Assembly (NCBI GenBank): GCA_029560805.1
Contig: JAKQKE010000159.1
Coordinates: forward strand, 1 to 33,107
Reading direction: 5' to 3'
DNA: 33,107 nt
DNA from: Spirochaetota bacterium
GTDB taxonomy: Bacteria > Spirochaetota > Spirochaetia > Treponematales > UBA12059
This document shows, piece by piece, positions 686 to 4,629 of this stretch. The position numbers and the translations under genes are program-made. The notes beneath the pieces are model-generated. The model did no database searches. It worked only from the letters and a program-made list of their open reading frames with translations, and had not been told where the DNA came from. Position 1 is the first letter of the stretch, and each line of letters starts with the position of its first letter.

Positions 686-1627
686 ATGGATGACGATATG
701 GACTATATGCAGGGCGACGAGGACCTCAGCCACCTCGAAGACGACGCCGTACCGGCCGCGGACGCGGGCGTTCACTGCGGCGAACTGCCCGATCCCCTGT
801 ACCGGCTCCGGGCCGATCCCTACAACGAGTCGTACTACGCCTGCTTCGATACCCCTCTCGAGCCGGGCGCCCGAGTCGTCGCGCCGACTCGCTACGGCAA
901 GGACATCTGCACCGTGCTCGGCACGGTCAAGGCGCCCGGCTTCGTGCGCGTCGACGACATCGTCCGGATAGACCGCGTCTCGACGCCAGAGGACGAGGCT
1001 CGCAGGGTGGCCGATGAGCAGAAGGAGAAAAAAGCCTTCGAGCTGTGCCAGGAGAAGATCAAGGCCCATAACCTGCCGATGAAGCTCGTCTTCGCCCACT
1101 ACCTGTTCGACGAGCAGAAGGTGCTGTTCTTCTTCACCGCCGACTCGAGGGTGGACTTCCGCAACCTGGTCAAGGATCTGGTATCCATTTTCAAGATGCG
1201 TATCGAGCTACGCCAGATCGGCGTGCGCGACGAGGCGCGGGTCGTCGGCGGCTGCGGGGTCTGCGGGCGGGTGCTCTGCTGTCACAGCGTCACCGACAAG
1301 CTCGTGCCCGTGTCGATCAAGATGGCCAAGGACCAGAACCTGTCGCTCAACTCGCTCAAGATATCCGGCCCCTGCGGGCGCCTGCTCTGCTGCCTCGCCT
1401 ACGAGTACGGCTTCTACCGCGAGGCCAGGCGTGGCATGCCGAGCGAGGGCGTCAGGATCCCGTACGATGGCACGGTTTTCAGGGTCGTGGAGGTGAATGT
1501 GCCGGCGGGACGGCTACGCTTGTCGGGAGAGGACGGCCGCTACGTCGAGGCTCCGTCCTCCCGCTTCGTGCAGCGCGACGGCCGCTGGGCCATGCTCGAC
1601 GAGGAGGCGGCCGAGTCCGCGGACTAA
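686..1627 (+). CDS. ricT: PSP1 domain regulator, RicT (YaaT) family
   Basis: The 313-residue protein carries the PSP1 C-terminal domain typical of RicT/YaaT. The hallmark cysteines are visible as CGVCGRVLCC (about residues 191-200) and CGRLLCC (about 230-236). In B. subtilis RicT joins RicA and RicF in an iron-sulphur protein complex that steers RNase Y cleavage; this cytoplasmic role is family knowledge, not something seen here. The acidic N-terminal extension (about 40 residues, rich in Asp and Glu) precedes the conserved PLYRLRADPYNESYYACFD start of the domain. AGGAGA 8 nt before the ATG at 686 supports the start. The gene follows yaaR by 32 bp and ends at a strong hairpin. Confidence 0.88.
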   Translation: MDDDMDYMQGDEDLSHLEDDAVPAADAGVHCGELPDPLYRLRADPYNESYYACFDTPLEPGARVVAPTRYGKDICTVLGTVKAPGFVRVDDIVRIDRVSTPEDEARRVADEQKEKKAFELCQEKIKAHNLPMKLVFAHYLFDEQKVLFFFTADSRVDFRNLVKDLVSIFKMRIELRQIGVRDEARVVGGCGVCGRVLCCHSVTDKLVPVSIKMAKDQNLSLNSLKISGPCGRLLCCLAYEYGFYREARRGMPSEGVRIPYDGTVFRVVEVNVPAGRLRLSGEDGRYVEAPSSRFVQRDGRWAMLDEEAAESAD

Positions 1628-2869: not shown

Positions 2870-2886
2870 GCTCCGTGGAGGAACCC

Positions 2887-3378
2887 ATGCCTGAAATCGC
2901 GTACTCGAGGCCGACCTGGGACGAGTATTTTATGGAGGTCTGCCGTGCGATCGCGAAGCGCGCCACCTGCGACCGAGGGCGCTCAGGCTGCGTGATCGCC
3001 AAGGACAACCAGATCCTGGCCACCGGCTACGTCGGTTCTCCATCGGGCCTGCCCCATTGCGACGAGCTTGGCCATCAGTTCAGGAAAACCGTCCACGAGG
3101 ACGGCTCCGAGTCCACTCATTGCGTGCGTAGCGTCCATGCGGAGCAGAACGCCATCTGTCAGGCCGCTCGTAGGGGCATAGCCATCGAGGGCGCCACGCT
3201 GTACTGCAAGATGACGCCATGCCGCGCCTGCGCGATGATGATCATCAACTGCGGCGTCGTCCGCGTGGTCTGCGAACGCAAGTACCACGCCGGCGCCGAG
3301 AGCGAGGAGATGTTCTCGAAGGTCGGGATACTCGTGGAGTACGTCGAGGACGAGGTGGAGCGCTACGAGCGCCAGTAG
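2887..3378 (+). CDS. dCMP deaminase (ComEB-like cytidine/deoxycytidylate deaminase)
   Basis: The 163-residue protein is a zinc-dependent deoxycytidylate deaminase, converting dCMP to dUMP for thymidylate synthesis. The catalytic zinc site is clear: HAE at residues 84-86 and PCRACAMMI with Cys112 and Cys115. The family's extra N-terminal metal/structural residues appear as ATCDRGRSGCVI and PHCDE. The ATG at 2887 was chosen because GGAGGA ends 4 nt upstream; the in-frame GTG at 2875 would place that Shine-Dalgarno inside the gene. The preceding TATAAT points to its own promoter. Next downstream, after 47 bp, is the YmdB-family gene on the same strand, possibly co-transcribed. Confidence 0.92.
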   Translation: MPEIAYSRPTWDEYFMEVCRAIAKRATCDRGRSGCVIAKDNQILATGYVGSPSGLPHCDELGHQFRKTVHEDGSESTHCVRSVHAEQNAICQAARRGIAIEGATLYCKMTPCRACAMMIINCGVVRVVCERKYHAGAESEEMFSKVGILVEYVEDEVERYERQ

Positions 3379-3425: not shown

Positions 3426-4253
3426 GTGGGTATACGCATCCTGTACATAGGCGAGATAGTCGGCCGCGCCGGCGTCTTCGCCGTCAAAAGACTCCTGCCG
3501 ACGCTCAGGCGAGAGACTGCCGCCGACTTGGTCGTCGCGTGTGCCAACGGCGCCACCGGTGGTTCCGGCATAGGCAAGGCGCATTCGGTCTACCTGCGCA
3601 AGCTGGGCATAGACGTGCTGACCACCGGCGAAGCGGCGTTCTACAAGAAGGATATCGTCGAGGCTTTTCCGAAGTCGCCATGGCTGCTGCGGCCGCTGAA
3701 CTACCCGCCCGGCGTGCCTGGCAGGGGCTTCCGGGCCTACCAGACGCCCAAGGGCCCGGTCGTCGTCGCGCAGCTGCTCGGCCAGGCGGGCTTCCCGCGG
3801 GTACACCTCGAGAACCCGTTCCATGTGCTCGACGCCGCTCTGCCGACCCTGTCGGAGGGATCGAAGGCGGTACTGCTCGACTTCCGCGCCGCCACGACCG
3901 CGGAGCGCCGGGCAATGGCCAGGTACGCGGACGGCAGGGTCAGCGCCGTGCTCGGCTCCTATGGCCGCGCGTTGAGCGCCGACGCCGAGGTGTCGGCAGC
4001 CGGTACCGCCAGCATGACCGATACCGGCCGGACCGGCAGCCTGATGTCAGTCGGGGGAATGGACGCCGCTACGAGGATTCATGAGTACCGGAGCGGGGTA
4101 CCCGTCTGGGCCAAGGACTCGTCGGAGGCACCCGAGCTTCAGGGCTGCGTCATCGAGCTAGGAGCGGACGGGCGCGCCGTGTCGATCGAGACGCTACGCG
4201 TGCCGTGCGAGGAGGAATTCGTTGAGGGAACGAGGCATAGTGACCAAGGTTGA
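3426..4253 (+). CDS. YmdB/TIGR00282-family protein lacking the metal-binding residues (likely pseudoenzyme)
   Basis: The 275-residue product aligns by eye along its whole length with YmdB, a calcineurin-like phosphodiesterase of B. subtilis: RILYIGEIVG start, NYPPGVPGRGF, DGRVSAVLGS, AGTASMTDTGRTG and the closing VWAKDSSEAPELQG region. The usual dimetal ligands are replaced: GD to GE at the first motif, GEN to ANG, GNH to GEA, DFHAE to DFRAA, and GTHTH to GSYGR. It therefore keeps the fold but very probably not the phosphodiesterase chemistry. The GTG at 3426 gives the canonical N-terminus; a longer in-frame start at 3219 would run inside the dCMP deaminase gene. Its 3' end overlaps the RseC-like gene by 32 bp. 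Family placement is strong; loss of activity is inferred. Confidence 0.82.
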   Translation: MGIRILYIGEIVGRAGVFAVKRLLPTLRRETAADLVVACANGATGGSGIGKAHSVYLRKLGIDVLTTGEAAFYKKDIVEAFPKSPWLLRPLNYPPGVPGRGFRAYQTPKGPVVVAQLLGQAGFPRVHLENPFHVLDAALPTLSEGSKAVLLDFRAATTAERRAMARYADGRVSAVLGSYGRALSADAEVSAAGTASMTDTGRTGSLMSVGGMDAATRIHEYRSGVPVWAKDSSEAPELQGCVIELGADGRAVSIETLRVPCEEEFVEGTRHSDQG

Positions 4254-4629
4254 CGGTAGCGACGTCACCGTCCGTATTTCCGGCGGAGAGGGCTGCGCGT
4301 CCTGCACCGCCGGCCATGATTGCTCGATCGTCGGCAAGGAACTGGTCGGCGACGCCGCCGCGGGTTACGCTTTCACCGCGGGCGACGAGGTGGAGCTGCT
4401 GGTGCCGGATTCGGCCAGCGCGGCCGGGGCGCTCTGGCTGTTGGCGGTGCCGCTCGGGCTGTTCTTCGCTGGCTACGCCGCGGCGGGCGCGCTGTGGCCT
4501 GGCCGCGGCGAGGGGCTCCGAGCGCTGCTCGGGCTCGGGGCGATGGCCCTCGGCCTCCTGTTCGCCGCCGTCGTGGCGCGCCGCGGCCGCATGTCCAGGC
4601 GGCCGACGGTCGTCCCCCTCGTCGCCTAG
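4222..4629 (+). CDS. SoxR-reducing system / RseC-family membrane protein
   Basis: The 135-residue protein has the RseC/MucC plan. A short cytoplasmic N-terminal domain has three clustered cysteines (Cys25, Cys28, Cys34 in GCASCTAGHDC). It is followed by two hydrophobic helices (about 70-92 and 101-121) and a basic tail. In proteobacteria RseC proteins modulate envelope-stress signalling, and in the rsx/rnf context they assist SoxR reduction. Related proteins in other phyla sit near Rnf complexes, but no rnf genes are visible here. The TTG at 4222 is chosen because GGAGG lies 6 nt upstream. This start is inside the preceding YmdB-like gene, so the two are translationally linked. The stop codon overlaps that of the opposing DJ-1 gene within CTAG. 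Confidence 0.8.
   Translation: MRERGIVTKVDGSDVTVRISGGEGCASCTAGHDCSIVGKELVGDAAAGYAFTAGDEVELLVPDSASAAGALWLLAVPLGLFFAGYAAAGALWPGRGEGLRALLGLGAMALGLLFAAVVARRGRMSRRPTVVPLVA

Follow-up and report, generated by a model that had tools for sequence, protein, structure and literature searches.

Gene organisation at the locus

The window, by which we mean the whole 33,107-nucleotide stretch of Spirochaetota DNA analysed here, carries an intact open frame with a GTG start at positions 3426-4253 that encodes a 275-residue paralogue of YmdB. The features considered below are as follows.

686..1627, + strand: RicT (PSP1), 1.8 kb upstream of the paralogue
2875..3378, + strand: ComEB-like dCMP deaminase, directly upstream of the paralogue, a conserved neighbour in families f1 and f4
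3426..4253, + strand: YmdB paralogue with a remodelled site free of metal ligands
3453..3455, + strand: codon 10, Glu for metal ligand Asp8; Glu in 60/60 representative paralogues
3546..3551, + strand: codons 41-42, Asn-Gly for Glu39-Asn40 (alignment)
3582..3602, + strand: His53-Tyr56-Lys59 on one helix, new near-invariant residues of class Spirochaetia paralogues
3630..3635, + strand: codons 69-70, Glu-Ala for ligand Asn67 and catalytic His68 (alignment)
3783..3806, + strand: loop QAGFPRVH, residues 120-127, with paralogue-specific Q120, F123, R125 and inserted H127
3885..3893, + strand: codons 154-156, Arg-Ala-Ala for His150-Ala-Glu152 of DFHAE (alignment)
3960..3968, + strand: codons 179-181, Tyr-Gly-Arg for His175-Thr-His177 of GTHTH (alignment)
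4211..4215, + strand: GGAGG ribosome-binding site of the RseC-like gene, within the paralogue gene (sequence)
4222..4629, + strand: RseC/MucC-like membrane protein gene, TTG start at 4222

A first-pass annotation of this DNA had described an intact gene for a YmdB-family protein with its fold-defining motifs kept, overlapping an RseC-like gene by 32 bp and lying 1.8 kb from ricT, and the frame, the overlap and the distance all agree with the coordinates above. The frame at 1697-2719 on the reverse strand encodes, as read from its translation, a predicted lipoprotein with apparent cyclophilin-type and FKBP-type peptidyl-prolyl isomerase domains in one chain.

A profile search with the 275-residue protein gave 233 bits against Pfam YmdB PF13277 (cut-off 27), with the match spanning positions 1-252 of 253, a full-length match above the gathering score that places it in the YmdB family by homology. 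Against NCBIfam TIGR00282, the hypothetical equivalog model for YmdB phosphodiesterase, it scored 164 bits, below the cut-off of 254.15; seven further paralogues, six from class Spirochaetia and L148 from a second class of the phylum, scored 158-221 bits, and the canonical YmdB of Borrelia 368 bits. Its sequence relatives in the PDB are only the four solved YmdB-type structures. An AlphaFold2 model (pLDDT 79.8) superposes on B. subtilis YmdB (4b2o) with a Z-score of 34.0 over 255 residues and an rmsd of 3.6, confirming the YmdB fold, and the two proteins share conserved glycines and the R89-P-x-N92 stretch.

Replacement of the dimetal site

The Fe(II) site of YmdB is formed by D8, E39, N40, N67, H150, H175 and H177, with H68 and D71 as catalytic residues (PMC10406935, the source of the ligand list). 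In the column alignment, positions 8/39/40/67/68/150/152/175/177 read E N G E A R A Y R in the window protein and D E N N H H E H H in B. subtilis YmdB. All nine are replaced (D8E, E39N, N40G, N67E, H68A, H150R, E152A, H175Y and H177R), so that every dimetal ligand of the YmdB phosphodiesterase is gone together with the catalytic H68, and D71 has also changed, to Tyr. The five substitutions that the first-pass annotation had listed by eye were thus all correct. The alignment to 4b2o is gap-free around every motif, which implies that the ligands have been replaced; the alternative, ligands that are shifted but present, was rejected, there being no indels near the motifs. The window protein is therefore a YmdB homologue, yet it is without the tested defining features of a YmdB phosphodiesterase.

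A paralogue family in Spirochaetota

Most of the related genomes searched carry two YmdB-family genes. In one alignment, all nine positions are kept in 44/44 canonical spirochaete copies and none to three in 46/46 paralogues, indicating that the substitutions go beyond chance. The paralogue is present across class Spirochaetia, including Borrelia-like and T. denticola-like Treponema genomes (organism names of this kind are inferred assignments, made partly from gene order), and is nearly always accompanied in the same genome by a canonical YmdB with all nine positions. A quick tree search, from which the nine site columns were left out, recovered the paralogues as one monophyletic group (SH-aLRT 99). 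If the canonical copies contain the root, this grouping means that the family arose only once, by one old duplication in Spirochaetota.

In Borrelia-like genomes, with a linear chromosome of about 0.9 Mb, the site reads E N F E N D N/S G R, and the gene is flanked by a 75-aa frame that follows lspA and by a gene of the EPSP-synthase/MurA type. From this gene order we take it to be BB_0471. Our search of the literature on the spirochaete YmdB paralogue, TIGR00282 and BB_0471 turned up only a mention of BB_0471, called a hypothetical protein, with an indel (PMC6711536).

The paralogue was not seen in the Leptospira-like genomes read (L152 and L161), which have the canonical form only. The second class of the phylum (L148, L158, L159, L160, L162 and L164) has a divergent paralogue with the site EDGDxHGHR and without the H53/Y56/K59 helix signature, and no RseC gene adjoins it in the stretches read. 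In the g19 genomes, which belong to one Treponema genus, the match to the paralogue is broken into two or three pieces and contains an insertion, and at G617:C1:1759980-1760871 the paralogue is split between frames, possibly as a pseudogene.

Evolution of the site within the family

Site residues were counted in 60 representative paralogues. Glu8 is found in 60/60 and Lys or Arg at 177 in 59/60, His68 is kept in 1/60, and 58/60 combine acids at 8 and 67 with Lys/Arg177. This combination suggests that a salt-bridge network of acid8, Lys/Arg177 and acid67 takes up the room of the metals. Virtually no paralogue retains the second-metal ligands D8, N40 and H177 or the catalytic His68; in their places stand Glu, Gly/Ser, Lys/Arg and a variety of residues, respectively, and the losses would already have occurred in the ancestor of the family.

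The other metal set (39, 67, 150 and 175) survives as two acids and two histidines in 34/60, and both histidines (150 and 175) are absent in 13/60. The minimum number of changes on the tree is 6 at position 39, 1 at 67, 4 at 150 and 11 at 175, and the end states of the window genus and its near relatives (N39/R150/Y175) and of Borrelia (N39/D150/G175) are independent. This set has been lost repeatedly and is fully gone in the window lineage, and, judged by these residues, function in the window lineage and in Borrelia cannot depend on a metal held there. A mononuclear metal as a conserved feature of the family, a candidate that we considered, is weakened by the repeated loss of H150 and H175.

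Purifying selection and newly invariant residues

Comparison of the window gene with those of four congeners gave dN/dS values of 0.05-0.15. Several residues absent from canonical YmdB are near-invariant in the paralogues of the class, namely K59 (54/54), H53 (52/54), R202 (51/54), R/K125 (51/54), and Q120 and F123 (46/54 each); H127, which lies in an insertion, was found in 43/46 paralogues of the first alignment set. A charge reversal of R216 to Glu was dropped as an interface signal, being near-invariant in the first set and present in only 36/54 across the class. Purifying selection together with gained invariant residues points to changed constraint, not decay, and the persistence of the family across the class without the catalytic residues is the pattern of a pseudoenzyme paralogue. 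Selection for a non-catalytic role, suggested in the first-pass annotation, is accordingly well supported by the class-wide paralogues, the dN/dS values, the new invariants and the fact that metal ligands were lost repeatedly while the gene was retained.

Gene neighbourhood and co-retention with canonical YmdB

At 49/64 loci of the class the paralogue has an RseC-like gene in the same orientation no more than about 134 bp downstream of it, and the products of these neighbours have, as a group, three near-invariant Cys residues in common. RseC proteins are membrane proteins for which positive regulatory roles have been reported, and RseC in Clostridium ljungdahlii activates RNF genes (PMC9124969). 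The two genes are also found apart: Borrelia has the paralogue and no RseC, some families keep the paralogue with RseC at a distance, and RseC persists in Treponema where the paralogue is missing, so RseC cannot be an obligate partner.

Through most of the class, the genus of the window and Borrelia among them, canonical YmdB directly follows rny. In T. denticola-like genomes (L044-L047) both YmdB copies are kept and neither adjoins rny. Counted by eye, a YmdB-family match was found in 335/395 genomes of the class and none in 60; 297 of the 335 positive genomes have two or more places, not every second place having been classified. The 38 genomes with one place are mostly drafts, with no single-contig genome among those listed. 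Within Treponemataceae, two or more places occur in 26/27 positive genomes, and 98 genomes have none. On the RNase Y tree of this family the YmdB pattern needs three changes, and at least two joint losses are forced by the starred branches. Genomes that have neither YmdB still carry RNase Y, as many Treponemataceae do, and mostly RseC as well. The distribution of the paralogue thus follows that of canonical YmdB and not that of RNase Y or RseC.

The genome of the window itself is missing canonical YmdB. Its rny (G000:C232:22234-22877) is truncated where the contig stops at 22877, and in the nearest congener the canonical gene comes immediately after rny; an assembly gap is therefore more likely, and we rejected biological loss of the canonical copy.

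A proposed binding function for the paralogue

We favour, with moderate confidence, a model in which the protein is a catalytically inactive YmdB paralogue with a binding role. It would most likely serve canonical YmdB as a structural or regulatory partner, with the RseC-like protein as its tether to the membrane. An old duplication of YmdB would have produced a second copy that was held by purifying selection; D8, N40, H177 and His68 would have been replaced in the ancestor, and the network of acid8, Lys/Arg177 and acid67 probably stabilises the empty site. The remaining 39/67/150/175 set, once perhaps holding a single ion, would then have been lost repeatedly, leaving a protein that may work through binding and not hydrolysis, with the co-encoded RseC-like protein possibly tying it to the membrane. 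The complex with canonical YmdB is putative and proposed from co-occurrence, and we infer the partnership with RseC from gene order. Several observations weigh against this explanation: the predicted inactivity is weaker for the family at large, 34/60 of which could bind one metal as MslH does, the co-loss amounts to few events and may reflect genome reduction, and the distribution of RseC given above is not that of an obligate partner. A wider proposal, which we put forward only tentatively, is that the YmdB pathway of class Spirochaetia would depend on an obligate pair, in which an active phosphodiesterase encoded in the rny operon would be bound and controlled by a metal-free pseudo-YmdB, itself co-encoded with the RseC-like Cys membrane protein; in Borrelia the latter YmdB would be BB_0471.

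Comparison with known systems separates what the paralogue has kept from what it has changed. It resembles B. subtilis YmdB (PF13277, TIGR00282; 4b2o) in full-length homology and fold, and differs in its replaced metal and catalytic residues, in a score below the TIGR00282 cut-off and in an operon with an RseC-like gene, not rny. Canonical spirochaete YmdB is its sister family, co-retained in the same genomes but, unlike the paralogue, with 9/9 positions kept and a place in the rny operon in most genomes. Vps29, a subunit of the eukaryotic retromer outside the YmdB family, has a metallophosphoesterase fold that serves as a protein-binding scaffold, and offers a general analogy with no direct comparison behind it. 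MslH, a lasso-peptide epimerase, is a YmdB-like fold turned Ca-dependent peptide epimerase; it has likewise lost the second metal site (D8, N40 and H177), and its other site holds one ion at the equivalents of paralogue positions 39, 67, 150 and 175 (PMC10406935). MslH differs in keeping its ligands and a His/Asp dyad, in its 16 percent identity to YmdB and in its unrelated context.

The match of the MslH Ca ligands to the set kept in 34/60 paralogues is one reason to consider neofunctionalisation, in which the old pocket would bind a new ligand or catalyse a new reaction with one metal or none, through H53, Y56, K59, Q120, R125, H127 and R202; the new near-invariant residues, several of them His, Lys or Arg, are another. 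We regard this as rather unlikely, since His68 is lost in 59/60 and the single-metal set has been lost many times, including in the window, while the gene stays, which makes a conserved metal-dependent reaction improbable.

The first-pass annotation had proposed a scaffold or regulator of RNase Y and RicT, which appears less likely still. Besides lying 1.8 kb away here, ricT is also near in related genera, the paralogue is 6-7 kb from rny in some Treponemataceae, and its apparent partner, canonical YmdB, belongs to the rny operon. However, ricT lies near the paralogue only in f1, the window's own family, and in one f4 genome, rny is kept in the many Treponemataceae that have neither YmdB, and the constant neighbour of the paralogue is the RseC-like gene. 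What stands of the proposed link is an indirect one, through co-retention with the canonical copy to which the rny operon belongs. A functionless decaying duplicate or a sequencing artefact would account for the loss of all metal ligands but is highly improbable, and random decay of one gene in a metagenome-assembled genome was rejected, given the open frame in independent genomes, the family-wide substitutions, class-wide retention, low dN/dS and invariant new residues.

The molecular target of YmdB in B. subtilis was reported as still undefined (PMC6123443). For the apparently dead copies of the YmdB family the annotation as metallophosphoesterase would be wrong, and an uncharacterised, putative pseudo-phosphodiesterase kept across a bacterial class that includes Borrelia and T. 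denticola-like Treponema offers a direct handle on how YmdB acts.
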